A DNA stretch of 64,000 nt, taken from the NCBI RefSeq assembly GCF_037971845.1, contig NZ_CP150227.1, positions 2,542,001 to 2,606,000 on the forward strand, given 5' to 3'. Position 1 is the first letter of the stretch. Every line of letters starts with the position of its first letter. Shown piece by piece: positions 49,971 to 64,000 of the stretch. The notes beneath the pieces were generated by a model that was not told where the DNA came from, made no database searches, and was given only the letters and a program-made list of their open reading frames with translations. A program made the position numbers and the translations under genes. Source of the DNA: Paenibacillus sp. FSL R5-0766. Lineage in GTDB: Bacteria; Bacillota; Bacilli; Paenibacillales; Paenibacillaceae.

Positions 49971-51260
49971 ATGAGCGATAACACAGCAGTTGGCAAGCAA
50001 GGTATGGGTGAGTTAATACGAATCAGACCGTACATGCAATTTATGCTTAGTAAAGTTGTATCCAGATTTGGTGATTCGATTGACTCGATTGCCTACAGTT
50101 GGATGGTGTACATTCTAACCGGTTCGAAAGTGCTGATGGGTACGTTGCTGGCGGTGAATTTTTTGCCCAATATCCTTCTGGGTCTGTTCGCCGGGGCTTT
50201 GGTTGATCGCCTGTCTCCCAAAAGAGTGATTGTGATTACGAATACCGGTCGCGGGTTGTTGGTGGGGATTACAGCTCTGCTGTTTGGATTGGGCCAACTT
50301 GAAGTCTGGCATCTGTTTGTCATTACAATTCTGAATTCTTTGCTGGAATGCTTCACTAGTCCTGCGGAAGTGTCCAGTGTCCCCCGATTGCTTCCCCCAT
50401 CGATGCTGCTTTCGGGTAATGCGATGTCCTCTTCCGCAACCAGAGTGGCCGAACTCGCAGGACTTGCAGTGGCGGGAGCCCTTATTGCTACAATAGGCAT
50501 TGCCTGGACGATCTTGATTGATGCGGGGTTGTTTGCGCTAAGTGCTTTGATTATGAGCCGAGTAGGCTACCCTGAAGCCTTAACATCTGCTAACAATGAA
50601 GATAAAACATCAATTGAAATAAATTCTCTTCCATCCGACAAAAGTAGTATATTCTCCGAAATGGCGGAAGCTTTTCATTTTCTCCGTAAACATGCCTTAT
50701 TGTTAATTGTCTCCATCCTGTTTGCCTTCGTTAATTTCTGCCTGATGCCGTTTAATGTTCTTCGTACACCCTATGTCATTGAAACGCTGCATGCTGGCGC
50801 TGGGGGATTAAGTCTGCTTAGTGGGCTGATGGTGGGAGGCATGCTGCTCAGTGGTGTATGGTTGACACAAAGGGGAGCGAATTATCGTAAAAGTGTGCTG
50901 GTCATCAGCGGTATTGTCATGTTGGGTCTCAGTTATGCGATGACGGCACTACCCGCTTATATGACTTCCTTCCAACTGCCGGTTGCAGCGGCCTTTTGTC
51001 TACTGATGGGTATGGGGATTCCGCTGGCTACAACACCGCTGGCCACCTATCTTATGGAAGTTACCCCTTCGGAGATGCTAGGCAGAGTGTACGCCCTTCA
51101 AAGTATGCTTGTCTTGAGTGTCGCACCACTTGGAAGTCTGGCTTCGGGAGCACTTGCAGATTGGATGACCATGCCTGTTCTGTTTATTGTCTTTGGTATT
51201 ATGCTTGCCATGTCCGCAGGTATGCTGTTATTTAGCAAAAGTTTTCGAAGTGCTATGTGA
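49971..51260 (+). CDS. MFS transporter
   Basis: 429 residues, about 12 membrane helices. Motif-A-like loop GALVDRLSPKRVIV between TM2 and TM3, and SPAEVSSVPRLLPP later, typical of the multidrug-efflux style MFS proteins (macrolide/MdfA-like COG). A charged loop (about 205-235) separates the two halves. Substrate unknown. GAGTGAAAAGGG precedes ATG 49971. Confidence 0.88.
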   Translation: MSDNTAVGKQGMGELIRIRPYMQFMLSKVVSRFGDSIDSIAYSWMVYILTGSKVLMGTLLAVNFLPNILLGLFAGALVDRLSPKRVIVITNTGRGLLVGITALLFGLGQLEVWHLFVITILNSLLECFTSPAEVSSVPRLLPPSMLLSGNAMSSSATRVAELAGLAVAGALIATIGIAWTILIDAGLFALSALIMSRVGYPEALTSANNEDKTSIEINSLPSDKSSIFSEMAEAFHFLRKHALLLIVSILFAFVNFCLMPFNVLRTPYVIETLHAGAGGLSLLSGLMVGGMLLSGVWLTQRGANYRKSVLVISGIVMLGLSYAMTALPAYMTSFQLPVAAAFCLLMGMGIPLATTPLATYLMEVTPSEMLGRVYALQSMLVLSVAPLGSLASGALADWMTMPVLFIVFGIMLAMSAGMLLFSKSFRSAM

Positions 51261-51317
51261 AGATATTCTGAAGTGATCATTAGCCAATTTTCTGTATCAA
51301 GTCATTTCTCGCTCGTT

Positions 51318-51347
51318 TTGACCGAAGTCCTGACGCAACGTTATAAT
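51318..51347 (+). promoter_or_regulatory. Promoter of the winged-helix regulator gene
   Basis: TTGACC, 18-base spacer, perfect TATAAT. Position implies that the ATG at 51358 would be almost leaderless, supporting ATG 51394 as start. Confidence 0.65.
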
Positions 51348-51393
51348 AGAGATATCGATGGACAACAGGTACCCCGGAAATGAGGATACAGGG

Positions 51394-52086
51394 ATGGCGC
51401 ACAAGGTTCTTTCAACAATTGAAGAAATAAAAATCTACTCCGATCCGTATCGGATTCAGATCATGAATATGTTTAACAAGCAGGGCAGACCATCCACTGT
51501 CAAAGAAATCGCCGACCAGATGGGTGAGGTGCCAGCCAAAGTTCACTATCATGTAAAAAAGCTGGAGAAAATCGGTCTGCTGACGATCGTTTCCACACGT
51601 GAGATTAATGGGATTATCGCAAAATACTACGAACCATTCACCGGAGAGATCCATCTCCGTCACGAAGATGAAGATAAGGAAAACTCTCCATTGAAACAGG
51701 TGTTTCGGTCCGAGACACTCAAATTATTAAATGAGATGTTCGAACAAAGTCGTCAGCGATTCATGCATCAGGCGGAAAACGAAGATCGGATGTTTCTCTC
51801 GGACATCACGCTGTATGCAACCCGTGAGGAAGTAGAGCAGCTGTATAAAAGCATCATAAAACTCTGTGAACCCTATACTACAAAAGAGAATCGACAAGGG
51901 GAACATGAGGTCTTTCAGTTATTCTCTGCTCTCTCTAAACCTATAGTGAAAATACCTGCTTCTAAGACAAATGCAAAAGAGAAAAAGAAAGCTACGTCTG
52001 ATAAGGACAAAGCAACTACGAAAAAGTCTCGATCTGTGTCTAAGCGGCAGGAATCTGCATCATCTGGCAGTGAGTCCGAAGAATAA
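51394..52086 (+). CDS. ArsR-like winged-helix transcriptional regulator
   Basis: About 230 residues. The helix-turn-helix (IYSDPYRIQIMNMFNKQGRP, STVKEIADQMGEVPAKVHYH, VKKLEKIGLL) is N-terminal. A helical middle follows, then a Lys/Ser-rich disordered tail (KTNAKEKKKATSDKDKATTK). It may control the upstream MFS gene; that link is positional only. ATG 51394 has AGGA seven bases upstream; ATG 51358 would add 12 residues. Confidence 0.82.
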   Translation: MAHKVLSTIEEIKIYSDPYRIQIMNMFNKQGRPSTVKEIADQMGEVPAKVHYHVKKLEKIGLLTIVSTREINGIIAKYYEPFTGEIHLRHEDEDKENSPLKQVFRSETLKLLNEMFEQSRQRFMHQAENEDRMFLSDITLYATREEVEQLYKSIIKLCEPYTTKENRQGEHEVFQLFSALSKPIVKIPASKTNAKEKKKATSDKDKATTKKSRSVSKRQESASSGSESEE

Positions 52087-52166
52087 ACGGATGGAATACA
52101 TGGGTTCAGCCTTATTGATGGAAGCAAGTAACCGCAAACGTGAGAGACTGCTATGGAGAAAACTAG

Positions 52167-52192
52167 AAAAAGCCGCCCAATGGCGGCTTTTT
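52167..52192. terminator. Bidirectional terminator
   Basis: Perfect arms AAAAAGCCGCC / GGCGGCTTTTT, loop CAAT, between the convergent regulator and yteA-like genes. Confidence 0.9.
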
Positions 52193-52277
52193 AATGCGTG
52201 ATAAGGAAGGCTAATGGTGGAGCAGTCTATTGAATTCATTTCAATTTTGACGCTTACCATTTCAGCTCATAACGAAG

Positions 52278-52844
52278 TTACATGTTCTCATCGTAACCCT
52301 TCACATCACGTTTGGCTGCGGTTGCGGGGGAGTTGGATGTGCCATATTCTTCGACCGCTTCCCAGGCATCTGCGTTGTCGAACTTGCCCGCTCGCTGCTG
52401 TCTTCCTTCTCCAGCACCACTTGGAGGCATGGTCATCACTTCTTCTTCAACGGGCCGATCGTTGCTGATCTCCACATTAGGCGTGTCGTCAATACAGTAA
52501 GCCGTATAGGGGATAGCTTCAAGTCGTTCGAAGGGAATATCTTCGCCGCACGTTACACAGGTTCCATATGTACCTTGCTCCATACGTTCCAATGCGTCGT
52601 TTACTTGATTGAATTCGTCTGTTAATGTATCGTCGATCGCCAGATCACGGCTGCGTTCAAATGTTTCCGTACCGGCATCTGCCGGATGATTATCATAGGA
52701 GGACAGCTCACCGGTTGAATCTTTCAGCGACTCGACTGGAGCACTGTCTTCCATGCTGGATTCAAAATGACGCTGCAAGTTTTCACGTTGCTCTAAAAGG
52801 GCGTTTTTCAGTATTTGATGTTGATCTTTAGTTAATGTACTCAT
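52278..52844 (-). CDS. YteA-like TraR/DksA zinc-finger family protein
   Basis: 188 residues. Coiled-coil N-terminus (QHQILKNALLEQRENLQRHF), the segment LERMEQGTYGTCVTCGEDIP and FERLEAIPYTAYCIDD. The DksA-type finger should be C-x2-C-x17-C-x2-C; the last Cys is Asp here, so zinc binding may be weakened. YteA proteins are sporulation-linked in Bacillus; they are not proven RNA-polymerase regulators. AAGGAG lies 10 bases before the start. Confidence 0.85.
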   Translation of the reverse strand: MSTLTKDQHQILKNALLEQRENLQRHFESSMEDSAPVESLKDSTGELSSYDNHPADAGTETFERSRDLAIDDTLTDEFNQVNDALERMEQGTYGTCVTCGEDIPFERLEAIPYTAYCIDDTPNVEISNDRPVEEEVMTMPPSGAGEGRQQRAGKFDNADAWEAVEEYGTSNSPATAAKRDVKGYDENM

Positions 52845-53043
52845 AAGGACATGCTCCTTTCCCGTTGTGGGGTGTAGTAAGTCTTTACCCGAATTGGAAG
52901 AAAAGCAATCATTTTCGTGAGGAATAGGGCTGTATCGTTTTATATCTGACGGATTATGTGTTATAAAAAATAGAGAGAGAAATTGCCGTGTGTTCTTCCC
53001 AGGAAATAGAACTACGGCTTGGCTTATAATGGAGGTTGTCAAT

Positions 53044-53421
53044 ATGGATGAACATATGAAACGAAGATTGGATAAACAAAGACAATTGTTCAAACAATTG
53101 GGTGTGCAGCTAGATGCGTTATCGATTCATGAAAAACAATTTAATTATAAACTTCGTGGTTATGATCCGGATGAGGTAGATGCTTATCTTGACCTGGTCA
53201 TCAAAGATTACGAACGTTTCTATGCCAATATTGCAGATCTGATGGACAAATGGCAAGAACAGCAGTTAACGATCCGCGATCTCAAGTCGTCCGCGAAACC
53301 GGTGGAAGATCCAACCAAGATTGATCGCAAACAACTGGATGATATTGTGAAACAACTGGAATACAGTGTGCGACAGCTCAAGATCAGAGCACGTCCCGAA
53401 AAGGATCTGTTCTCTGAATAG
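53044..53421 (+). CDS. DivIVA-domain protein
   Basis: 125 residues. The DivIVA N-terminal lipid-binding domain is visible: IHEKQFNYKLRGYDPDEVDA followed by YLDLVIKDYERF, with the GYDxxEVD signature. An upstream basic helix (KRRLDKQRQLFKQLGVQLDAL) is unusual for GpsB or DivIVA. A short coiled coil ends the protein (KQLDDIVKQLEYSVRQLK). Probably recruited to curved membrane or the division site. GGAGG lies 8 bases before ATG 53044. Confidence 0.85.
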   Translation: MDEHMKRRLDKQRQLFKQLGVQLDALSIHEKQFNYKLRGYDPDEVDAYLDLVIKDYERFYANIADLMDKWQEQQLTIRDLKSSAKPVEDPTKIDRKQLDDIVKQLEYSVRQLKIRARPEKDLFSE

Positions 53422-53462
53422 GTCAGTATGACTAGGATTATATTAAATAAAGGTGGTTAATC

Positions 53463-53897
53463 ATGAGTACTCATTTTTCGGTCAGTGTGCATTGTTTGTT
53501 GTTATTGTCACTCAGCGCGCCTGAACGAATCACGTCTGCACATATTGCAGGTAGCGTGAATACCAACCCTGTCGTCGTCAGACGTATTCTGGGCGGGCTG
53601 AAAAAGGCAGGATTGGTGAACTCCTCTCCTGGAACAAGAGGCTTCTACTTAGCGAAGCCATCAAGTGAAATCACATTAGCCATGATCTATCAGGCTGCCA
53701 AGGACGAAGGTCCATTGTTCCCGATTCACGGCAATTGTAACCCGGATTGTGAAGTGGGCTTGCATATAGACGGCTTGCTGACCAATCTGTATCAGGTTGC
53801 AGAGGCGAAGGTGGAGCAGTTCTTTGCATCCATTACACTCGAAGATATGGAACGTTCCTGTACTCAGATGCAAGCTGTTCCATCACAGACAGAATAG
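53463..53897 (+). CDS. Rrf2-family transcriptional regulator
   Basis: 144 residues. Winged helix with HFSVSVHCLLLLS, VNTNPVVVRRILGGLKKAGL and SSPGTRGFYLAKPSSEITL, as in the YwnA group. Cysteines at CNPDCEVG may sense redox or a metal cluster, but the three-Cys IscR arrangement is not seen. AAAGGTGG precedes ATG 53463. The target is not evident. Confidence 0.88.
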   Translation: MSTHFSVSVHCLLLLSLSAPERITSAHIAGSVNTNPVVVRRILGGLKKAGLVNSSPGTRGFYLAKPSSEITLAMIYQAAKDEGPLFPIHGNCNPDCEVGLHIDGLLTNLYQVAEAKVEQFFASITLEDMERSCTQMQAVPSQTE

Positions 53898-53921
53898 ATT
53901 GCAATAAAGACTTAAAGTGCA

Positions 53922-54034
53922 TGTTCAAAAAGGGTGGTTTTCAGTACCGAGAAGATGGGATGAATTCCATATTCGATGCTGCGATGCCGTTAGGCATCCT
54001 TCGTAATCAAAAGCGGACTTTTTGAACGACCTCT
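53922..54034. repeat. Dispersed inverted-terminal element, copy C with internal deletion
   Basis: Both ends match copies A and B (TGTTCAAAAAGGGTGGTTTT and AAAAGCGGACTTTTTGAACG). About 62 internal bases are missing between GGGATGAA and GAATTCC; both deletion borders carry TGAA in the full copies, suggesting microhomology loss. It ends just before the ribosome site of the next gene. Confidence 0.8.
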
Positions 54035-54056
54035 TAAAGGAAAGGTGGGTTGTTAT

Positions 54057-54554
54057 ATGAAAATTGTAGTCATCTCTGACACGCATTTATCACGTAAATC
54101 ACGGAAGTTACCGACTAGGCTCCTGGATGTACTGCCGAGTGCCGATCTCATTCTTCATGCCGGTGACTGGTCGGATTGGAGTGTATACCCATTGCTTAGT
54201 GAGTATGCACCAGTTGAAGGTGTAGCGGGTAATACGGACCCGTCCGAAATCGCTGAAAAACTGGGATATTCCCGTATTGTTGAAGTGGAAGGACTTCGTC
54301 TGGGTCTTGTGCACGGACATCTGGGATCAAAGGGTACGGAGCAGAATGCAATTCATACGTTTGCAGGCCAGCATGTGGATGCTGTGATCTATGGACACTC
54401 ACATATCCCGGTGATGCATACCGTGGACAACACGCTGGTATTTAATCCCGGGTCGCCTACGGATCGGCGTTTTCAGAAGCAATACTCATTTGGCATCATG
54501 ACAATAGATCAGGGGAAAATACAGGCTGAACACGTGTTCTTTGATCGGGATTAG
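54057..54554 (+). CDS. YfcE/YsnB-type metallophosphoesterase
   Basis: 165 residues. Two-metal motifs: ISDTHLSRKS (D, H), HAGDWSD (GD), VAGNTD (GN in GNxD), LVHGHLGS and YGHSHIP (GHxH). Family members hydrolyse phosphodiesters such as cyclic nucleotides or model substrates; the true substrate is unclear. AAAGGAAAGGTGGG precedes ATG 54057. Confidence 0.9.
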   Translation: MKIVVISDTHLSRKSRKLPTRLLDVLPSADLILHAGDWSDWSVYPLLSEYAPVEGVAGNTDPSEIAEKLGYSRIVEVEGLRLGLVHGHLGSKGTEQNAIHTFAGQHVDAVIYGHSHIPVMHTVDNTLVFNPGSPTDRRFQKQYSFGIMTIDQGKIQAEHVFFDRD

Positions 54555-54678
54555 AGAGATATGCGCTGGTTGCAAGTTGGACGAGTGCAAGAACCAGAAC
54601 CAGCTACTGAAGTGGCGACTTGATAACGGACAGGGAACCTTTTCCTTAAATTTCATCTTATATATATGATTATTGTAC

Positions 54679-54727
54679 AAGGCATCTTTGAGCAGATTTT
54701 AAATCTGTTCCAGGGATGTCTTTTTTG
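54679..54727 (+). terminator. Terminator after the phosphoesterase gene
   Basis: Arms AGGCATC...AGCAGATTT and AAATCTGTT...GATGTCT, imperfect, then T6. Confidence 0.65.
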
Positions 54728-54865
54728 ATTTCTGATCACATCATTCTCTTGAGAAGTTATCTCTGAATGGGGAATGTGCTCTGTTCGTTATCTGTCATTC
54801 ATCTGTTGGCGTTTTCCCCTATGGTGACGTTCAGTGGAGTGATACAATGCCTTTACGACATAAAA

Positions 54866-54879
54866 TGAATACGTTTACA
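54866..54879 (+). promoter_or_regulatory. Candidate CcpA (cre) site upstream of the sugar cluster
   Basis: TGAATACGTTTACA differs at one position from the cre consensus TGWNANCGNTNWCA. It lies 15 bases before the first gene of a sugar-type operon, where catabolite repression by roadblock would fit. Confidence 0.5.
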
Positions 54880-54893
54880 TAAGGAGATGGATC

Positions 54894-55811
54894 ATGATGA
54901 AACTGTCTGTATTCACGGTGGCTACTCCTGATCTGAATGCAGAAGAACTGGCATCGGCTGCGGCAGCAGCGGGAATTGATGGAATCGAGTGGAGATTCCG
55001 TGGAATTCCTGAAGATGCTATATCTGAAGAGCCTTCTTACTGGAGAAATAATCGATGCTCGGTAGATCCGAGCCGCTGGGAGGAACAGGTTCCTGTTTTT
55101 CGTGAAGCAGCGTTAGGGCAAGGTAGAAAATCCATCGCACTTGTACCGTATCTGAACTGTGAAGATCTGTCTGCCACCAAGCAAGCGTTTCAGGCTGCGG
55201 CTGGTTTAGGAGCATCTATGATGCGTGTGGGTGTTCCTGGATATGATCGCAAGACCAGTTATCCTGAGTTGTATCGTAAAGCCGTTGATTACCTGAGTGA
55301 AGTACAAGATCTGGCCAAACAGTACAACATCAAGGCGATTGTAGAGACACATCACCAGACGATTGCACCGACGGCATCGCTGGCCTATCGGCTTGTGCAA
55401 TCGCTCGATCCGCAGCATGTGGGTGTACTGTACGATCCAGGCAATATGGTGCATGAAGGATATGAGAATCATCGGATGGGACTTGAGTTGTTAGGCCCTT
55501 ATCTTGCTCATGTACATGTAAAAAATGCCGGGTGGTTTGAAGCAGAAGGGAAAGATTCGCAAAAGGCTAATGTGACTGAAAAGAGCAGCGGAGTGGCTCT
55601 GAATACAGCCTGGAAATGTCACTGGACGCCGCTGACTGAAGGCATGGTCGATTGGGTACAGATGGTGCGGGATCTTCGTGCCGTCGGGTATGACGGATAT
55701 TACGGAATAGAGGACTTTAGTGGTGCCTTGGAATCCAAGGCGATGTTACAGCATTTTGCAGACGTTTTCGCCGAAATTGAGCGTCGTGTGGACGAGGAGG
55801 AGCAGTCATGA
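54894..55811 (+). CDS. Sugar phosphate isomerase/epimerase (xylose isomerase-like TIM barrel)
   Basis: 305 residues. AP-endonuclease-2 type TIM barrel: DGIEWRFRG, IKAIVETHHQT (metal Glu), GVLYDPGNMV (Asp), HVHVKNAGW (His) and the terminal YGIEDFSG. The family isomerises or dehydrates sugars and cyclitols (for example inosose). AAGGAG precedes ATG 54894. It overlaps the next Gfo/Idh gene by four bases, so the pair acts in one pathway. Confidence 0.88.
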   Translation: MMKLSVFTVATPDLNAEELASAAAAAGIDGIEWRFRGIPEDAISEEPSYWRNNRCSVDPSRWEEQVPVFREAALGQGRKSIALVPYLNCEDLSATKQAFQAAAGLGASMMRVGVPGYDRKTSYPELYRKAVDYLSEVQDLAKQYNIKAIVETHHQTIAPTASLAYRLVQSLDPQHVGVLYDPGNMVHEGYENHRMGLELLGPYLAHVHVKNAGWFEAEGKDSQKANVTEKSSGVALNTAWKCHWTPLTEGMVDWVQMVRDLRAVGYDGYYGIEDFSGALESKAMLQHFADVFAEIERRVDEEEQS

Positions 55812-56980
55812 GTATCGTACGAGTAGCGGTGATTGGTATTGGAAACATGGGAGCAGCACATGCCAGAACGTTGGTGGCTGGAGAAGTACCCGGTGCAGAG
55901 CTGGTCGCCGTATGTGATGTAAGAAGAGAGATGGAGAGCTGGGTATCCAGTCATCTTCCCGCAACGGTCACTTATTGGCAGGATGCAGAGCAGATGATGG
56001 CTTCGGGTACGATTGATGCAGTCATTATTGCAACGCCGCATTATGATCATCCGGAACAGGCCATTCAGGCTTTCCAGCATGGCTTGCATGTCATGATCGA
56101 GAAGCCGGCCGGTGTATATACGAAACAGGTACGCAAGATGAATGAAGCGGCCGCAGCCAGTGGCAAAGTCTTTTCCATGATGTACAACCAGCGGACCAAT
56201 CCACTCTACATTAAGCTGAGAGACTTGATTGCTTCGGGCGAACTGGGTGAAGTACGGCGTACCAACTGGATTATTACGAACTGGTATCGATCCCAAAGTT
56301 ACTATGATTCCGGCGGCTGGCGGGCAACTTGGGCAGGGGAAGGTGGCGGTGTACTGATTAACCAGGACCCGCATCAACTGGATCTGTGGCAGTGGACCAT
56401 CGGCATGATGCCGGTACGAATGCGTGCTTTCTGTTCGTTTGGCAAGTATCGGAATATTGAAGTGGAAGATGATGTAACGGCTTATGTGGAGTATGAAAAT
56501 GGAGCAACAGGTGTCTTTGTAACGACTACTGGCGAAGCACCGGGTACCAATCGATTCGAGGTCAACGGAGACCGGGGGAAAATCGTGATCGAAGACGGAA
56601 AACTTACGTTCTGGCGACTTCGGGAATCTGAGCCTGAATTCAATCAGCGGTTTACCGGAGGTTTTGGACAGCCCGAATGCTGGAAATGTGAGGTTCCGAT
56701 TACAGGTGTGGAAACGGGGCACCCGGGTCTGATTCGTAACTGGGTTGATGCGATTCGAACAGGTGCAACACTTATTGCTCCCGGTGAGGATGGTATACAC
56801 GGATTAACATTGTCAAACGCTATGCTGCTGTCCACCTGGACGGATAACTGGGTGGATCTGCCGATCGATGAGGATCTGTTCTATGAGCATCTGCAAGAAC
56901 GTATTGCTGGTTCAACGACGAAGAAAGACAAGGCATTCAGTGGCAGTCAACCTGCTGATTTGAGTCAGACGTTTAAATGA
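55808..56980 (+). CDS. Gfo/Idh/MocA family oxidoreductase
   Basis: 390 residues. Rossmann fold VAVIGIGNMGAAHARTLV, IIATPHYDHPEQAI and signature IEKPAGVYTKQ. The substrate domain reads GGGVLINQDPHQLDLWQW, with the conserved D-x-x-H-x-x-D. Typical of inositol-type dehydrogenases. Coupled by ATGA overlap to the isomerase. Confidence 0.9.
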   Translation: MSIVRVAVIGIGNMGAAHARTLVAGEVPGAELVAVCDVRREMESWVSSHLPATVTYWQDAEQMMASGTIDAVIIATPHYDHPEQAIQAFQHGLHVMIEKPAGVYTKQVRKMNEAAAASGKVFSMMYNQRTNPLYIKLRDLIASGELGEVRRTNWIITNWYRSQSYYDSGGWRATWAGEGGGVLINQDPHQLDLWQWTIGMMPVRMRAFCSFGKYRNIEVEDDVTAYVEYENGATGVFVTTTGEAPGTNRFEVNGDRGKIVIEDGKLTFWRLRESEPEFNQRFTGGFGQPECWKCEVPITGVETGHPGLIRNWVDAIRTGATLIAPGEDGIHGLTLSNAMLLSTWTDNWVDLPIDEDLFYEHLQERIAGSTTKKDKAFSGSQPADLSQTFK

Positions 56981-57043
56981 AGACGATTTGTTATATAAGA
57001 CGAGTTCATTGTAATCAACATTTTATAATAAGGATGGGATGAC

Positions 57044-58141
57044 ATGGCTAAAGACGGAATGTTTTATGCACCAAAAAGTGTTACAAAAGAGGTCTTATGT
57101 GGTCCGGGTGAGTTCACGATTGCTGCTGTTGCGCTGGATCACGGACACATCTACGGCATGGTTGGGGCATTGTTGGAGGCTGGTGCTACCCTCAAGTGGG
57201 TGTATGATCCGGACCCGGCGAAGGTAGCGGCATTTCAGAAGCAGTTCCCACAGGCTCAAGTTGCTGGATCTGAAGCGGAGGTGCTTGCAGATGATGAGGT
57301 GTTATTGGTGGCAAGTGCAGCGATCCCTTTAGATCGTGCGCCGCTTGGCATGAGAGTTCTGGCCGCAGGCAAGGATTATTTTACAGACAAAGCCCCATTT
57401 ACCACACTGGAGCAATTAAAGCTTGCACGAGAAGAAGTGAAGCGAACGGGCAAGAAGTACATGGTGTATTACAGTGAACGACTGCATGTAGAAAGTGCGA
57501 TCTATGCGGGGCAGCTCATCGAACAAGGGGCAATCGGCAAAGTAGTGCAAGTTATGGGCACAGGCCCGCATCGCTTAAATGCAGGAGGAAGACCCGACTG
57601 GTTCTTCAAGCATGAGCAGTATGGCGGTATTCTCTGTGATATCGGGAGTCACCAGATCGAACAATTCCTGACGTTTGCATCATGCACGGACGCTGAGGTA
57701 GGGTTCAGTCGTGTGCATAACTTCAATCACCCACAGTTCCCGGAATTGGAAGACTTCGGCGAAGCTTCTCTGATCGGGGACAACGGAGCGTCCGGTTACT
57801 TCCGAGTGGACTGGTTCACACCGGATGGTCTGGGCACATGGGGCGATGGACGTACAGTTATTCTGGGAACGGACGGTTATATTGAGCTGCGGAAGTATAT
57901 CGACATCGCAAGGGAACCTCAGGGGGATCAGGTGTACCTGGTCAATCATGAAGGGGAGTACCGCTACAATGTAAAAGGCAAGGTCGGTTACCCGTTCTTC
58001 GGCCAACTCATTCGCGATTGTCTGGACCGGACCGAGACCGCCATGACACAGGAACATGCATTCAAAGCGGCAGAACTCTGTCTGATTGCACAGCACAAAG
58101 CCATGAGCGAGCGCGTGGTGTGGAGTAGCGGAGCGAAGTAA
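57044..58141 (+). CDS. Gfo/Idh/MocA family oxidoreductase
   Basis: 365 residues. Less typical N-terminus (ALDHGHIYGMVGALLEAG), then FTDKAPFTTLEQL in place of EKP, and GGILCDIGSHQIEQFLTFA. It is the third gene of the cluster and 63 bases after the second. The DHGHIYGM start is seen in a subgroup encoded beside sugar isomerases. Likely another oxidation or reduction step on the same sugar. Confidence 0.88.
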   Translation: MAKDGMFYAPKSVTKEVLCGPGEFTIAAVALDHGHIYGMVGALLEAGATLKWVYDPDPAKVAAFQKQFPQAQVAGSEAEVLADDEVLLVASAAIPLDRAPLGMRVLAAGKDYFTDKAPFTTLEQLKLAREEVKRTGKKYMVYYSERLHVESAIYAGQLIEQGAIGKVVQVMGTGPHRLNAGGRPDWFFKHEQYGGILCDIGSHQIEQFLTFASCTDAEVGFSRVHNFNHPQFPELEDFGEASLIGDNGASGYFRVDWFTPDGLGTWGDGRTVILGTDGYIELRKYIDIAREPQGDQVYLVNHEGEYRYNVKGKVGYPFFGQLIRDCLDRTETAMTQEHAFKAAELCLIAQHKAMSERVVWSSGAK

Positions 58142-58229
58142 ATGTTTTAGGTGAAGGGGAGCAAAGGTTGATTACTAAAGGTTATTAGTAAATCTTCTTT
58201 TGTTGAGTGAAGAAAGAGCAGCCCAAATG

Positions 58230-58297
58230 TTAAACTGCATCCAACAAGTTAGTCTTTTCTAACGAATGGAGCAGTTTGCACTGGGACTGCTTTTTTT
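58230..58297 (+). terminator. Compound hairpin and terminator after the sugar cluster
   Basis: Outer arms AAACTGC / GCAGTTT with an inner GTTAG / CTAAC stem (58230-58278), overlapping AGCAGT / ACTGCT plus T7 (58270-58297). It ends the chromosomal operon about 100 bases before the first cassette. Confidence 0.6.
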
Positions 58298-58397
58298 AAA
58301 TGTTCGTGACTTCGCAGATGGATTAATATGGGTTATATTATATGTATTTCGAATATTGTTTGAAAAGAGAGGTGTTTACGAAGTTCGTATATATGAT

Positions 58398-58406
58398 GTT
58401 AGACGA
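58398..58406 (+). other. Left boundary recombination site of the cassette array
   Basis: GTTAGACGA, the first cassette edge. The sequence to its left shows neither an attC palindrome nor a divergent integrase gene, so this is either a degenerate attI or a secondary G-T-T target used by an integrase acting in trans. Confidence 0.65.
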
Positions 58407-58451
58407 AACCGCTAGAAGCATAAATAGAAAAAAGATATGATAGGAGACATT

Positions 58452-58943
58452 ATGGAAATTAAACTTGTTCCAGTAAAACCAGAAGAAAAGAGTACTCTAT
58501 CGAATCTATATCAACTGTATCATTATGATTTTAGCGAATTTACAAACCAAGAGATTAATAAAGATGGAAGGTATGAAGTGAACATTGATTTCTTTTGGGA
58601 AGGTGACCATAGATGGAAGCCATATTTAATAGAGGTTTCTGGAAGATTAGCAGGATTCTTAATTGTGCTTCTTGAGAATTTAGATACCGATCCAGATCCG
58701 ACACATGTGATCTATGATTTTATGATTATTAAGAAATTCAGAAGAAATGGTATTGGTTACTCCGCTGCTATCAAGGCATTTGAATTATATGAAGCGAATT
58801 GGAAAATTGCTCAGATGGAGAATAATACTCCTGCAATATCGTTCTGGAGAAAAGTAATAAAAGATTTTACAGAAGATAATTATATTGAAAGATTCAGGGA
58901 TGATGTAAAGAAGTATGTTCAAGCGTTTAGTACAAAGCAATAG
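58452..58943 (+). CDS. Cassette 1: GNAT-family acetyltransferase
   Basis: 163 residues. GNAT fold with YDFMIIKKFRRNGIGYSAA (acetyl-CoA loop RRNGIG) and the C-terminal NNTPAISFWRKVI. TAGGAG sits 5-10 bases before ATG 58452, so this start is preferred over the ATG at 58437. Only ORF of its cassette. Acetyltransferases are common integron cargo, where some confer resistance; nothing here shows an antibiotic as substrate. Confidence 0.85.
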   Translation: MEIKLVPVKPEEKSTLSNLYQLYHYDFSEFTNQEINKDGRYEVNIDFFWEGDHRWKPYLIEVSGRLAGFLIVLLENLDTDPDPTHVIYDFMIIKKFRRNGIGYSAAIKAFELYEANWKIAQMENNTPAISFWRKVIKDFTEDNYIERFRDDVKKYVQAFSTKQ

Positions 58944-58980
58944 AAAGATAGCATTTTATAGGGTTATTTAAGGCGGCATC

Positions 58981-59139
58981 GTCTAACAATGCTTTCCTAC
59001 TGTGGGCATTCGCCCTTGATCGCCAAGAGGGATTTCAGCGAAGTATATTCAGGCGATACATTCAACCAGCTAAGTCTGACGACCCGTTCCCTTCGGTCAC
59101 TTAAGCTGCTTGAACGTCAGGAATGCGGAAACGTTATAG
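58981..59139 (+). repeat. attC1 site (cassette 1 / cassette 2 junction)
   Basis: From GTCTAAC to AACGTTATAG, about 159 bases. The inner arms are CTTTCCT near the left and AGGAATG near the right; a GGGC-ATTC-GCCC hairpin and CTGACG / CGTCAG arms lie inside. Very similar to attC4 over nearly its whole length. Confidence 0.85.
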
Positions 59140-59203
59140 GAAATCAGCGAGTAAATCGAAAAAAAGTCGCTAAAATGCGTATACAAGGAAGGAGAAGATC
59201 GAA

Positions 59204-59833
59204 TTGTTGTTTGCTCAATTGGCTGAAAAAAATCAGTTACATTTTAAATCTGGTTCAATTAACGGGACTTCAGGAGTTGCTGTTTTCAATACATCGTGTA
59301 CTAGTCGATATTTTTTAGAGAAACGTTGGGAACAAGGTGAAGACATTCTGACTGCCATAATGATGAATCCAAGTAGGGCTTCACACAATGAAACTGATGA
59401 TACGGTTGATCAGTTAATTAGTGTTGCAAAAATGCAGAATTGTCATGCACTATTTGTTGTTAATGTTTCTAGTCATATTCAAGGTACCAGTAGTAAAACA
59501 AAAGTTTCACACTTTGATTATGAAGCCATTAATTGGTTGTTTGTTTCTAATGCTATTTTAGAAGCTAAAATCGTTTTCCTTGGATGGGGAATGAAGGGGC
59601 AGAAAGGAATTAATAAACAACAAAAATTATATCCTGCTATAGTAAATACTTTTAAGACTTCGATAGATAAATTGTATAGTTATGAAGTATTAAAATCGGA
59701 AGATAAGAAATTCATTGAAAATCCTATTTTTTATGTACCTCATCCACGGCCTCAGGGGCAGAAAAATAAATATTCAAATATATCAATTCAAAATATTAGT
59801 AGTGATGAATTCAACTGCTTATTTGTTAGATAA
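59204..59833 (+). CDS. Cassette 2: DUF1643 family protein
   Basis: 209 residues. The family signature is ILTAIMMNPSRASHNETDDT, matching the LNPS-A...DxT pattern of DUF1643, and AKIVFLGWGMKG and PHPRPQG occur later. Biochemical role unknown; the family is often found on mobile DNA. TTG start at 59204 with AAGGAGAAG 8 bases upstream; an ATG-started overlapping frame runs through attC1 and is rejected. Confidence 0.85.
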   Translation: MLFAQLAEKNQLHFKSGSINGTSGVAVFNTSCTSRYFLEKRWEQGEDILTAIMMNPSRASHNETDDTVDQLISVAKMQNCHALFVVNVSSHIQGTSSKTKVSHFDYEAINWLFVSNAILEAKIVFLGWGMKGQKGINKQQKLYPAIVNTFKTSIDKLYSYEVLKSEDKKFIENPIFYVPHPRPQGQKNKYSNISIQNISSDEFNCLFVR

Positions 59834-59898
59834 ATAAGATATCTTTAAATTAAATAGGATCTAATGCTTGTAAGTAGTTCAAAGAGGGCGTTGACATC

Positions 59899-60015
59899 CT
59901 ATAACATAATATTCAAGCTGCGGCTCCTTTTGGAGTCTTGGTCTGCAAGTTGGATTTCGGAGAAGCATTTCAGCAGACAACCCCTTCGGGGTTCATGAAT
60001 ACCGGAACGTTAAGT
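59899..60015 (+). repeat. attC2 site
   Basis: From CTATAAC to AACGTTAAGT, about 117 bases. ATATTCA pairs with TGAATAC near the ends; hairpins CTCC-TTTT-GGAG and ACCCC-TTC-GGGGT plus GTCTGC / GCAGAC lie inside. Closely similar to attC3. Confidence 0.85.
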
Positions 60016-60082
60016 GAAATTCCAGTGAGAACTATAGGCTTGAGAAATGGTATGATATAACCATCAAAACAGAGGAGGGACA

Positions 60083-60328
60083 ATGATGAAATGGCAAGAA
60101 GTTCAACAGATTTTTCCGAATCAATTCGTAAAATTCGAAGTTCTTCATTCTGAAGAAACAGACAATCAAGAGATCATTTATGATGTGGCCGTGATTGGCC
60201 CGATCAGTGATGAAGAGGCAACTCGCGAATTATTGAACAGCAGAGACAAGACTCTGGTTTACCATACTTCCAAAGATCAAATCGTTGTTAAGGTACGGAA
60301 AAATATAGGATTAAGGAGAAATCTTTAA
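60083..60328 (+). CDS. Cassette 3, gene 1: small protein paired with an aspartic protease
   Basis: 81 residues starting MKWQEVQQIFPNQFVKFEVL (after a possible extra Met), acidic, with YDVAVIGPISDEEATRELL and LVYHTSKDQIVVKVR. AGGAGGGA precedes. Its stop TAA touches the ATG of the next gene, so they are strictly coupled. I recall similar small proteins beside retropepsin-like genes in Bacillales, but the function is unknown. Confidence 0.7.
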   Translation: MMKWQEVQQIFPNQFVKFEVLHSEETDNQEIIYDVAVIGPISDEEATRELLNSRDKTLVYHTSKDQIVVKVRKNIGLRRNL

Positions 60329-60709
60329 ATGAATATTGAATATAGAGATGGGCTGTTATTCACGGAAATAACAGTCCATTTTAATAAGCAGAAGAAAGTG
60401 ATATCGAACATCGTGATCGATACAGGAGCTAGTCATAGCTTGCTTTCACAAGATGAAGTGGATGAGATTGGGATACTAGTGAGTATGGACGATGAAATCA
60501 TAACCAGCTACGGAATCGGAGGCAAAGAGCATGCCTTCAGTAAGCGAATCGACGGTATACAGGTAGGGGATTTCATTTTAAAGGATATATACATAGACTT
60601 TACTTCATTTAAATATCACAACATTAACGGACTTTTGGGACTCGATGTACTGACGGAAGGAGAATTTGATATTGATTTAAAGAGACTTAAATTACTTCGT
60701 TCACAATAG
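60329..60709 (+). CDS. Cassette 3, gene 2: retropepsin-like aspartic protease
   Basis: 126 residues, single-domain aspartic protease fold. Active-site motif VIDTGASHSLLS (D-T-G) near residue 31; the second conserved hydrophobic-Gly motif is NGLLGLDVL. Such small enzymes work as dimers. Targets unknown. It starts at the base after the stop of its partner, so both are carried as one two-gene cassette. Confidence 0.85.
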   Translation: MNIEYRDGLLFTEITVHFNKQKKVISNIVIDTGASHSLLSQDEVDEIGILVSMDDEIITSYGIGGKEHAFSKRIDGIQVGDFILKDIYIDFTSFKYHNINGLLGLDVLTEGEFDIDLKRLKLLRSQ

Positions 60710-60758
60710 ATAAAAGACATTAGAGATTGAGTGGTGATTCGAGGAAGACTGGAACATC

Positions 60759-60875
60759 ACTTAACAGCATATTCAAGCAGCGACTCCTTTCGGAGTCTTG
60801 GTCTGCTAGATGGATTTCGAGGAGGTATTTCAGCAGTCAACCCCTCCGGGGTTCGTGAATACAGTAACGTTATCC
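60759..60875 (+). repeat. attC3 site
   Basis: From ACTTAAC (a perfect RYYYAAC) to AACGTTATCC, about 117 bases. Same internal hairpins as attC2 (CTCC-TTTC-GGAG, ACCCC-TCC-GGGGT). Confidence 0.85.
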
Positions 60876-60900
60876 GAAATACCTGAAATGGGGAATGACA

Positions 60901-61329
60901 ATGAAGTACTTGAATACAAGAAGAAAAAGGTTTATGTTTGCATGTTTGCTCATCGTAGTAATTTATTTTTCTCTTTCTGGATGGATAAGCATGGAAGTGA
61001 AAAAAACTATAAGAAGTGTATTGCTAACTGAAGATTTTATAAAGAATGAAAAAAATATAAAGAAAGAAGCATTTGATAACTTTTTGAGATTTAGCGGTAG
61101 GGAAGTTTATCCGTTATATAACAAAAATGATGTTGAGATAGATGTTGTTGTAAGTCAACCTATTTCAATTCATTATTTTGTTGGGGGATATGCATGGATG
61201 ACTTATAGATATAGAGGAATTGACAAGAAGACTAATGAAATACTATTTGGTGCAAATGCTCCAATAAGAATAAAAGTAGATCTGGTTAAGGGTCGATGGA
61301 AAATCATTAAGAAATGGGAAAAACCGTGA
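60901..61329 (+). CDS. Cassette 4: small single-pass membrane protein of unknown function
   Basis: 142 residues. One N-terminal membrane segment (about 10-31, FMFACLLIVVIYFSLSGWI) after a basic stretch NTRRKR. The soluble part ends YRGIDKKTNEILFGANAPIR then IKVDLVKGRWKIIKKW, with the alternating pattern of a small beta-rich domain. No family recognised. ATG 60901 preferred over 60895 because of ATGGGG spacing. Confidence 0.65.
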   Translation: MKYLNTRRKRFMFACLLIVVIYFSLSGWISMEVKKTIRSVLLTEDFIKNEKNIKKEAFDNFLRFSGREVYPLYNKNDVEIDVVVSQPISIHYFVGGYAWMTYRYRGIDKKTNEILFGANAPIRIKVDLVKGRWKIIKKWEKP

Positions 61330-61360
61330 ATGATAGTAATTCAATGAAGTCAGGTACATC

Positions 61361-61518
61361 GGATAACAATACATTCCTACTGTGGGCATTCGCCCTTGAT
61401 TGCTTAGAAGGATTTTCAAGAAGATTATTCAGGCGATACATTCAACCAGCTAAGTCTGACGACCCGTTCCCTGCGGTCACTTAAGCTGCTTGAACGTCAG
61501 GAATGCCAAACGTTATCT
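61361..61518 (+). repeat. attC4 site
   Basis: From GGATAAC to AACGTTATCT, about 158 bases. Nearly the same as attC1, including CCTACTGTGGGCATTCGCCC and the CAACCAGCTAAGTCTGACG core, while the cassette-specific end bases differ. Confidence 0.85.
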
Positions 61519-61550
61519 GACATAAAACTATTACATTTTAGGAACAAATA

Positions 61551-62270
61551 ATGAATATCACTTTCTCGAAATGGGTGCAATATTATCGAAGAAATAATCA
61601 AAACCTCAAATATATTCATTGGGATGACCACTATAAATTAACAACTAATGAAAGAGAAATAATCATTAAGTCACTTCAACAGTTTCAATTAGGAGAAAAC
61701 TCTGAAGGTAAACATCTAATTAAACGTGCGCAAGAATATGTACATCAGACACAAGATCAGGATTACTATGAAGCGCTTATAGAATTCATTAAAGAAGAAC
61801 AGAGGCACGCTAGAGATCTAGGCAGATTTATGAAGGTACAGGGAATCCCGCTTCTTCGTAGACATTGGGTGGACAATGTATTTAGAAGATTACGTCAATA
61901 TGCGAGTCTAGAACAATCAGTCATTGTTCTATTAACCGCTGAGATCATTGCTAAGTTGTACTATAAAGCCTTGCAAAAATCTACAAATTCAGAAGTATTA
62001 ATAGATTTATGTAATCAGATTTTAAGTGACGAGGAGAAACATGTTCAGTTTCAATCCGAAACACTTCATAAATTTGCTCAAAATAGAAACGTCTTCTTTA
62101 ACAGAATAGTTTATACCCTTCGTAGAATTCTTTTTGAAGGAACGCTAATTATAGTGTGGTATCAACATAAGCCTGTATTTAAAGCTGGGGGATATAAACT
62201 CAAAAGTTATTACTATGAATGCCGCCATGAGTTTAACTTAACAAAGAAGATTATAGCTAGTTTACAGTAG
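61551..62270 (+). CDS. Cassette 5: ferritin-like diiron protein
   Basis: 239 residues, mostly helical. Two ExxH motifs typical of ferritin-like four-helix bundles: IKEEQRHARDL (about 83-88) and LSDEEKHVQFQ (about 162-168), plus further Glu in TAEIIAKLYY. Possibly an oxidase, hydroxylase or iron-binding protein. The C-terminal 60 residues (FEGTLIIVWYQH) are not part of the usual fold. No classical AGGAGG site is seen before ATG 61551. Confidence 0.72.
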   Translation: MNITFSKWVQYYRRNNQNLKYIHWDDHYKLTTNEREIIIKSLQQFQLGENSEGKHLIKRAQEYVHQTQDQDYYEALIEFIKEEQRHARDLGRFMKVQGIPLLRRHWVDNVFRRLRQYASLEQSVIVLLTAEIIAKLYYKALQKSTNSEVLIDLCNQILSDEEKHVQFQSETLHKFAQNRNVFFNRIVYTLRRILFEGTLIIVWYQHKPVFKAGGYKLKSYYYECRHEFNLTKKIIASLQ

Positions 62271-62281
62271 AGGTTTATGTC

Positions 62282-62448
62282 AGATAACATTATATCCATA
62301 CTTTAGGTCCTGACGCTCCCTCGGTCAGCCCGAAGGGAATTGGCAGGGAAGTGGAATCTGGCGGACACATCCGCACCGACTAACCGCATCGCGTTCGCCC
62401 CGAACGTGGCTTAAGTCGGTGGGGCGTCGTGATACAGTAACGTTATAG
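62282..62448 (+). repeat. attC5 site
   Basis: From AGATAAC to AACGTTATAG, about 167 bases. CACCGACT / AGTCGGTG, GCGGA / TCCGC and GTTCG / CGAAC stems lie inside. A distinct subtype from attC1-4. Its cassette shows 15 bases of end complementarity. Confidence 0.82.
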
Positions 62449-62506
62449 GAAATCAGCGTATAAAAATACAAAATAAATTATTCAAACTCTGAATAGGAGT
62501 GAAATC

Positions 62507-63166
62507 ATGCTGGAAGCGGTTATTTTCGATATGGATGGTACACTATTTCAAACAAACAAAATCTTAGAGTTATCGTTAGAAGAAACGTTTTCTATCTTGA
62601 GGTCTCGTAATGAATGGTCGAGTGAGACTCCAACTCAAAAATATCGTGAAATTATGGGAGTTCCTCTACCAGTTGTTTGGGAAACGTTATTGCCGAACCA
62701 TTCAAATGAAATCAGACGAATTGTGGATGAGATCTTCCTTGAGAAGTTAATTGCAAATATTAATAATGGCAATGGCGCCCTATATCCGCATGTCAAAGAA
62801 ATTTTTAATTACTTGAAAGATGAAGGCTATTTCATTTTTATTGCAAGTAATGGACTAAACGAATACCTTAATGCCATCGTTAACTGCTATAAATTAGATA
62901 AGTGGGTGGCAGAAACTTATAGCATCCAACAAATAGGAACTCAAAATAAGGATGACTTAGTCGGTCATATTCTTAAAAAACATCACATCAGCAATGCAAC
63001 TGTAGTTGGGGACAGGATTTCTGATTTCAATGGCGCAAAAAACAATGGGTTGAAGGCTATTGGTTGTCGATTTGATTTTGCCCAAGAAGGGGAGCTTGCA
63101 CAAGCGGATTTTATTATTGACGACTTACTTGAATTAAAAAATATATTTAGACATCAGGGAAAATAG
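62507..63166 (+). CDS. Cassette 6: HAD-superfamily hydrolase
   Basis: 219 residues. HAD motifs in order: FDMDGTLF (I, nucleophilic Asp), IASNG (II), then KKHH with VVGDRISDFNGAKNNG (IV). A helical cap lies between motifs I and II as in beta-phosphoglucomutase-like phosphatases. A small phosphate ester is the likely substrate. GGAGTGA precedes ATG 62507. Confidence 0.9.
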   Translation: MLEAVIFDMDGTLFQTNKILELSLEETFSILRSRNEWSSETPTQKYREIMGVPLPVVWETLLPNHSNEIRRIVDEIFLEKLIANINNGNGALYPHVKEIFNYLKDEGYFIFIASNGLNEYLNAIVNCYKLDKWVAETYSIQQIGTQNKDDLVGHILKKHHISNATVVGDRISDFNGAKNNGLKAIGCRFDFAQEGELAQADFIIDDLLELKNIFRHQGK

Positions 63167-63204
63167 AATACTTTTGTAATTATATCGATGAAGACGCTGA
63201 AGTC

Positions 63205-63361
63205 CTATAACACCATAGTTAAGCTACGGTTACCCCTTGGTCACAATGATGTTTTTGGCTGATTTATGTGACAACTTGCTGCGTAAGTTTGGGAACACAA
63301 AAAAGTTAGCAAAAATCAGGGGAATGCTTAATTAAAAGATTAGATAAACTATTAGTTAAGG
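63205..63361 (+). repeat. attC6 site, right end uncertain
   Basis: The left edge CTATAAC is clear and pairs with the start of cassette 6. GTCACA / TGTGAC and AACTT / AAGTT stems and a distant TTAAGC / GCTTAA pair are visible. The usual AACGTTA end is missing; GTTAAGG at 63355 or GTTAGCA at 63305 are candidates. Possibly a diverged site. Confidence 0.55.
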
Positions 63362-63373
63362 ACGGGGATTTCA

Positions 63374-64000
63374 ATGAGTAGCTTGTTACTAACCTCTTGT
63401 GGTTTTTATACAGATGATATTAAAAATCAATTTCTGGATTTTATTGATGGAGATATTTCTCAATTAAAAGTCTCAATTATTACAACAGCATCCCCTAGAA
63501 AAGAAACTAATAGATATGCACAAAGAGCAATGCAAGAGTTTAAGGACATGGGATTTCAGCATATCAATTTTGTAGATATTGAATTTGATGACCCGCAAAT
63601 TCTCTTACATAGAGATGTTATATATATTAATGGTGGAAATCCATTTACACTATTGTATTACGCTAAGAAAAGTGGTGCTGATGAAATTATCAGAACACTG
63701 GCCGCACAGAATGTAATTATAGTTGGAGTAAGTGCAGGAACGTTATTACTGGGGCCGAATATTAACATTGTCGATTTCTTTACTCCACAGATGAACACAA
63801 TGAATTTAACGGATTTTAAGGCATTAGGTGTAACAGACAAGCTTATTTTTCCTCACTATGATCGAGAGGACATATTTAAAGATCGTACTAATAAAACAAT
63901 CGAAGAGAGAATAGTAGAATTTGAATGCAATGAGAAATGTAAGGTGACAAGGCTTAAAGATGAAGAATATATCTCAATCTTAATGAACCAAGCACATTGA
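63374..64000 (+). CDS. Peptidase S51 / type 1 glutamine amidotransferase-like protein
   Basis: 208 residues, complete to the last base of the window. The nucleophile elbow GVSAGTLLL contains G-x-S-A-G (Ser); YINGGNPF precedes it, as in PepE-like S51 dipeptidases. Catalytic His may be in FPHYDRED. Probably the seventh cassette gene, but its downstream attC lies outside the window. Start ATG 63374 with GGACGGGG upstream. Confidence 0.85.
   Translation: MSSLLLTSCGFYTDDIKNQFLDFIDGDISQLKVSIITTASPRKETNRYAQRAMQEFKDMGFQHINFVDIEFDDPQILLHRDVIYINGGNPFTLLYYAKKSGADEIIRTLAAQNVIIVGVSAGTLLLGPNINIVDFFTPQMNTMNLTDFKALGVTDKLIFPHYDREDIFKDRTNKTIEERIVEFECNEKCKVTRLKDEEYISILMNQAH

Follow-up and report, generated by a model that had tools for sequence, protein, structure and literature searches.

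An integron-type gene cassette array without a nearby integrase in Paenibacillus sp. FSL R5-0766, and a candidate second lineage of integrons

Here, we analyse a row of gene cassettes in a 64,000-nucleotide stretch of the chromosome of Paenibacillus sp. FSL R5-0766. This stretch (the window) spans G000:C1:2542001-2606000 and is part of a single 7.0 Mb chromosome; G000 is the window's genome, G001, G002 and G003 are relatives, and L-numbers are the genomic loci compared. Sequence comparison argues strongly that an integron-type array begins at an attI-like site in the window, which covers its first seven cassettes, and that a tyrosine recombinase encoded in front of the arrays of relatives, and likely lost here, probably inserted and reshuffled such cassettes. 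The original prediction, made from the letters of the window alone, was of an integron-type cassette array, and this reading is upheld with two corrections. At the cut-offs used, what the window contains is not a complete integron but an array that lacks an integrase, and the recombinase linked to the arrays of relatives is not IntI by the criterion of the field. The platform works like an integron yet falls outside the accepted definition of the integrase. We also think it rather probable that the platform represents a second integron lineage, built on HARP-armed recombinases outside the IntI clade, common to Bacilli and Bacteroidota, with a co-oriented integrase and an 18-position, two-segment attC arm; its cassette sites would fill nearly the whole genus, and it would have been overlooked because searches use the IntI-specific domain.

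Cassette ends and attC-like sites

From position 58398 on, the window contains small genes on the + strand, separated by palindrome-rich spacers. All six units of the original prediction lie where it placed them; each opens with GTTANNNGA and closes with a reverse complement that matches this start at 9 of 9 bases. It had also claimed that the three variable bases match inside each unit and differ between units; the former is true of every unit, and the latter of all except units 2 and 6, which agree. The ends of unit 5 do match over 15 bases, as described, and the first five spacers are 121-171 bp long (TC to GA) with AACGTTA at the right end. In all, 296 units were reduced to 249 cassettes with clean cores, from 37 loci. 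All three variable bases agree in 188 of them, a match beyond chance, and GTTA stands at the start of 236.

The symmetry of the two ends proves longer than the original prediction saw. When the start of each of the 249 cassettes is compared with its reverse-complemented end, agreement at positions 5-7 is 0.83-0.88, versus 0.31-0.51 with randomly dealt ends. Agreement is low at position 10 (0.38) and near nil at position 11 (0.07), comes back at positions 12-16 (0.75-0.80, versus 0.27-0.44 for random ends), and then declines through 0.60 at position 17 and 0.43 at position 18 to background. In other words, pairing resumes after a 2-nt interruption, most often AA versus TG, and continues for up to 7 bases (positions 12-18). 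Each of the six window units shows at least four matches in the six positions 12-17. The two halves of one array attC (189 pairs), by comparison, agree at about the random level at the same positions. Because the halves within an attC stay near random, the 9-bp arm, the 2-nt interruption and the second arm of up to 7 bp can be attributed to the cassette rather than the junction.

All attC models were built within this analysis. The initial model, R1, came from array sites in L009, the stretch that holds and extends the window's array. Because R1 was derived from the window's own array sites, we made a window-free profile that keeps 134 of 150 attC rows, all of them from other genomes and none from the window or L009; the rows themselves had been gathered with R1. 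The window-free profile matches the six window spacers (E from 1.5e-28 to 1.5e-5) and nowhere else in the window, and ten Markov shuffles of the window gave zero matches at E<=10. Background scores for every spacer would have spoken against the original prediction; all six are scored by a profile free of window sequence.

The sites have the form of attC, being imperfect palindromes with R and L boxes. In 145 distinct rows, the stem formed by these boxes is 94.4% paired, compared to 24-41% when the boxes are slid, and 57 cells carry double changes versus 9.4 in shuffles; both figures come from an alignment fitted to the model and are biased accordingly. One caveat is that the number of pairs with double changes (6) was reached in 44 of 500 shuffles. 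Folding was assessed in a sample of 120 attC sites, both at the array junction and in a circular form with the two cassette ends joined as after excision. In 109 of these, the bottom strand has a more favourable fold in the circular form than at the array junction, with mean energies of -30.0 kcal/mol for the circular form, -23.2 for the array junction and -23.6 for shuffled starts. The top strand of the circular form folds nearly equally well (-28.4 kcal/mol), so folding shows no strand preference. In 16 hand-cut attC-like sites, judged by eye, no single common shape of the inner part was seen. The sites at window 58979-62450 fall into two size classes, of about 100-120 and about 160-170 bp, which have inner sequence blocks in common.

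The layout of the array is as follows, all features lying on the + strand. The attI-like site at 58371-58401 shares 25 of 31 bases with the attI tail of relatives and has no adjoining integrase gene. Cassette 1 (58398-59132; matching ends define the unit 58398-58987) carries a GNAT acetyltransferase gene at 58437-58943 (PF00583) and is followed by attC-like site 1 (58979-59141), found by R1, as were sites 2 to 5, and scored at E=2.5e-17 by the window-free profile. Cassette 2 (59133-60008; unit 59133-59905) encodes a DUF1643 protein at 59204-59833 (PF07799), and site 2 lies at 59897-60017 (E=1.5e-28). Cassette 3 (60009-60868; unit 60009-60765) contains a small open reading frame at 60083-60328 and an aspartyl-protease-like gene at 60329-60709; it is also present in L105, L118, L120 and L121, and its site 3 (60757-60877; E=6.7e-26) is among those folded in circular form. 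Cassette 4 (60869-61511; unit 60869-61367) has a gene at 60895-61329 with no Pfam match at E<=0.001, and site 4 spans 61359-61520 (E=1.4e-14). Cassette 5 (61512-62441; unit 61512-62288) has a gene at 61551-62270, ferritin-like at a score under the Pfam cut-off, and is also found in L048, L050 and L114; site 5 is at 62280-62450 (E=9.3e-19). Cassette 6 (62442-63304; unit 62442-63211), shared with L048 and L050, carries a HAD hydrolase gene at 62507-63166. Its site 6 (63203-63313), with right core GTTAGCAAA at 63305-63313, is degenerate, being matched by the window-free profile at E=1.5e-5 and missed by R1 at E<=0.01. Cassette 7 (63305-64000), with a peptidase S51 gene at 63374-64000, has ends that match only partly, and continues past the window to L009:6194. 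The array as a whole extends about 9 kb past the window end, with 14 R1 matches in L009, five of them within the window. Among the families represented by cassette genes are GNAT, DUF1643, aspartyl protease-like, HAD, peptidase S51, inositol phosphatase, NUDIX, APH, GrpB, DUF4304 and LprI. On the left, the array is preceded by a conserved chromosomal flank (50000-58400) with oxidoreductase and other genes, which is 90-95% identical in G001, G002 and G003 over the fetched stretches (blastn).

Comparative evidence for cassette exchange, and the array-linked recombinase

Cassette mobility was judged by comparison between genomes. By blastn, homology of the left flank with three relatives stops at window 58401-58408, which is the first GTTA, and each of these relatives has a different first cassette after the common flank. 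At the right edge of common cassettes, similarity likewise drops after GTTA, save for a shared GA/A consensus. Of 277 cassettes, 80 belong to 31 shared families. Retention of the same genes in the same order by relatives would have counted against the original prediction. Instead, 54 comparisons of a cassette present in two loci showed a different next cassette in 46 and the same one in 8. The cassettes at 61512 and 62442 are adjacent in L048 and L050 as well. Related genomes inherit cassettes in common, and these counts are not counts of independent events. On this comparative evidence, the cassettes are exchanged as units, in variable order. In the same chromosomal place as the window's array, L047 (G001), L050 (G003) and L053 (G002) contain a second array with its own attI-like site. 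No adjoining integrase was found at these three loci, so an integrase encoded at another place would have to act on their cassettes.

In relatives, a tyrosine recombinase gene precedes the array on the same strand. Our count of integrase loci started from 31 rows, which include two loci twice (L043 = L087, L045 = L096), leaving 29 distinct loci. In 27 of these, attC sites lie downstream on the integrase's strand, the first one 515-2691 bp away, and there are zero sites on the opposite strand; L091 has one stray upstream site. The exceptions are L145, which gave no attC match at E<=1e-3 but shows one unit-like span, and L149, where a partial, 36% identical integrase match is accompanied by two attC sites on the opposite strand. 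An attI site lies behind the integrase gene in 30 of 30 loci, conserved at 29-31 of 31 bases in 26 and at 23-24 in four. It ends in GTTA in all but L072, which has ATTA, and cassettes diverge past the site. Relatives therefore have attI next to the integrase gene, and the window has an attI-like site without an integrase. Upstream of the integrase, none of three LexA-type box patterns was found in 13 loci. With one integrase as query, 47 of 75 Paenibacillus genomes match at E<=1e-60, and an integrase profile matches 46 of 75 at E<=1e-70; in a hand count of the profile listing, 23 matches in 22 genomes cover the profile without a reported stop. One intact integrase gene, from P. amylolyticus, lies at L043:11832-12947.

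Is this recombinase an integron integrase in the usual sense? PMC9668308 and PMC2426708, citing Messier and Roy (2001), define the integron integrase by an IntI-specific additional domain. In our alignment A4, the corresponding insert is present in IntI1 (L130) and absent in six Paenibacillus-type members and two Bacteroidota integrases. By hmmscan, in which one protein was left out and which supplied the positive control for IntI, TIGR02249 (cut-off 265) gives 199-215 bits for six of the new recombinases versus 448 and 456 for the two IntI controls. The IntI-specific additional domain is thus lacking from the array-linked recombinase. With NF040815 (cut-off 220), six recombinases score 205-228 bits, and public records call some of these proteins "site-specific tyrosine recombinase/integron integrase", which is the name of NF040815. 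Among 48 integrases, R224, K249, H314 and R317 are invariant and H340 and Y349 are present in at least 90%; we take these six to be the catalytic residues. A Foldseek search with a model of the whole integrase returned the integron integrase 2a3v as best match (E=7e-16), with XerA structures ranking alongside IntI4. The extra N-terminal domain, predicted alone, weakly resembles DNA-structure-reading domains of the HARP/UvsW/XPB type. Matches to HARP (PF07443) are weak as well, at 14.8 bits in the L045 copy versus a curated cut-off of 25 bits, and at E<=1 in 19 of 48 integrases, the best being 4e-4. In the tree, IntI forms one clade (99/97) separate from the new family, 15 of 33 inner branches are open, and a joint clade of IntI, Paenibacillus-type and Bacteroidota sequences is compatible with the data (p-AU 0.23).

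The window's genome gave no integrase-family match at E<=1e-60 (single query) or 1e-70 (profile). Nor did tblastn with four Xer-type queries and the integrase find a match in the window and L009-L012. Where relatives carry the integrase, the genome has an attI scar (L110:5641-5719), which aligns with a score of 97, while 200 shuffles gave no score above 28. The scar escaped a genome-wide DNA search with one attI stretch at E<=0.01; it was recognised by eye and then aligned. Two attC-like remnants (E 7.5e-8 and 0.002) lie at the same locus (L110:8076-8129 and 17199-17342; G000:C1 about 1.734-1.745 Mb). Many cassette ends in this genome are decayed. Since no integrase was found at the cut-offs used, the array is probably stranded. 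We considered the genome's own Xer-like genes as the array recombinase and set them aside, as more than 1 Mb separates them from the array and the arrays of relatives are linked to a dedicated gene.

Proposed mechanism and alternative explanations

In the mechanism we favour, excision of a cassette as a circle would bring its own two ends together, and the strand of the attC so formed could take the shape of a hairpin whose outer arm is long and made of two segments. The recombinase would read this folded strand, cut at GTTA and join it to attI or to another attC. Its N-terminal HARP/UvsW/XPB-like domain may read the arm, or the junction of single and double strand, and so cover part of the job of the additional domain of IntI. 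In the window's genome, the integrase locus would have shrunk to the attI scar. With that locus reduced to a scar and many cassette ends decayed, the window's array is probably now immobile.

It is also conceivable that an ordinary IntI built the array and was then lost, and that the co-located recombinase is an unrelated passenger. The attI, attC, GTT core and single-gene cassettes are all present, as such a remnant would have them, and IntegronFinder 2.0 records a few integrase-less clusters in Firmicutes (PMC9024848). We nonetheless regard this as improbable, for the recombinase precedes the array in 27 of the 29 distinct loci and is followed by attI in each of 30 loci, and recombinase and array also occur together in other families of Bacilli and on a Bacteroidota plasmid. 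A search for canonical IntI in the 75 genus genomes found none at E<=1e-40, in a search whose controls gave no match. A role for the host's XerC/XerD, moving the cassettes as dif-type modules, seems more improbable still on the evidence of recombinase genes and cassette ends. The window's genome does keep XerD-type, XerS-type and other Xer-like genes and has an array without an array-linked enzyme, yet this is also the genome in which many cassette ends are decayed, and in 27 of the 29 distinct loci the array is accompanied by a recombinase with its own attI. Least credible to us is that the spacers are transcribed hairpins (terminators, attenuators) or repeats of the repetitive extragenic palindromic type between ordinary genes. 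They are palindrome-rich and intergenic, but the covariation spans hundreds of bases, from one end of a cassette to the other, rather than linking the halves of one spacer; homology between species stops at GTTA, with differing gene order; and an Rfam scan of the window found no family at gathering score.

We return to the favoured reading, an integron-type array probably served by a dedicated recombinase, and ask how it relates to known systems. Like IntI integrons, it has mostly one-gene cassettes, each with its own attC and complementary ends, insertion at a GTT in attI beside a tyrosine recombinase gene, and cassettes that vary in content and order. The intI gene of canonical integrons usually diverges from its cassettes; in contrast, integrase and cassettes are co-oriented here. 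The recombinase also differs from IntI in lacking the additional domain and in having an extra domain at its N-terminus. The published integron core is 7 bp, GTTRRRY, in PMC8876359; our core is GTTANNNGA, only 48 of 249 cassette starts fit GTTRRRY, and end symmetry covers about 18 positions. Of four IntI loci on viral contigs taken for comparison of the longer arm, L150 alone has long upstream sequence, and it yielded no usable array. With archaeal XerA and other Xer-type recombinases the enzyme shares the catalytic core, but its gene is tied to attI and cassette arrays and has the extra N-terminal domain. Xer acts on dif in chromosome separation. HARP/UvsW/XPB domains sit on helicases; the damage-recognition-like domain here, at weak scores, sits on a recombinase. 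The window's array itself resembles CALIN, clusters of two or more attC sites that lack a neighbouring integrase, and has six sites by the models built here; unlike them, it has kept an attI-like site at its start.

Spread and significance

Integrons are known mainly from Gram-negative bacteria. A genus-wide scan, scoring at most 38 candidates per genome, found attC-like sites at E<=1e-5 in 74 of 75 Paenibacillus genomes, with 2 to 35 in each. In a sample of the class, the integrase was found at E<=1e-80 in 17 of 299 genomes and 8 of 118 genera, three other families among them. Six further class loci were long enough to look for downstream attC, L148 being too short; same-strand downstream sites are present in L143, L144, L146 and L147 and absent from L145 and L149.

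The integrase also has homologues on Bacteroidota plasmids, with similarity that includes part of the N-terminal domain; they precede rows of small genes, most of which share their strand. In the Rufibacter tibetensis plasmid (L125:7092-12900), attC-like repeats of about 65 bp lie between the small genes, and one cassette has an AA/TG mismatch after nine matching bases, like Paenibacillus cassettes. By eye, the Rufibacter protein contains the N-terminal domain twice. A Chryseobacterium plasmid (L124:6966-12700) likewise has an N-extended recombinase homologue before a small-gene row. On pHH1107 (L129:4004-4669), the gene for a TnpF recombinase (46% identity across 60% of the query) immediately precedes a tet(X)-type gene, and the pair could be the remnant of a platform of this kind. 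Shorter related recombinases, matching from about residue 99-105, adjoin IS91-family transposases on a Vibrio alfacsensis plasmid (L128:3986-5896) and in NZ_KM017071.1. Insertion sequences that target attC sites exist. In both phyla, IS110-family transposases occur in or near array ends (L009:16370-17752; L124:10221-11222; L125:12929-13089), and these may be specific to the sites described here.

How do these observations bear on the known range of integrons? According to the IntegronFinder 2.0 report (PMC9024848), integrons are extremely rare in Firmicutes, with one complete example in Limnochorda and a few integrase-less clusters; single arrays of the present kind may already be counted among the latter. 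Among the matches listed in the open-licence PMC literature (titles and starts of abstracts), there was no description of the platform or of a Paenibacillus integron. Here, attC-like sites are found in nearly every sampled genome of one Gram-positive genus, and the usual criterion would leave out the integrase associated with them. This would widen the known range of cassette exchange and add a new pool of cassette genes. The cassette-specific ends, 18 positions long, offer a sequence signature for finding such arrays elsewhere. Finally, the platform raises the question of whether the additional domain of IntI is needed to handle folded single strands, or whether another domain that reads DNA structure may be enough.

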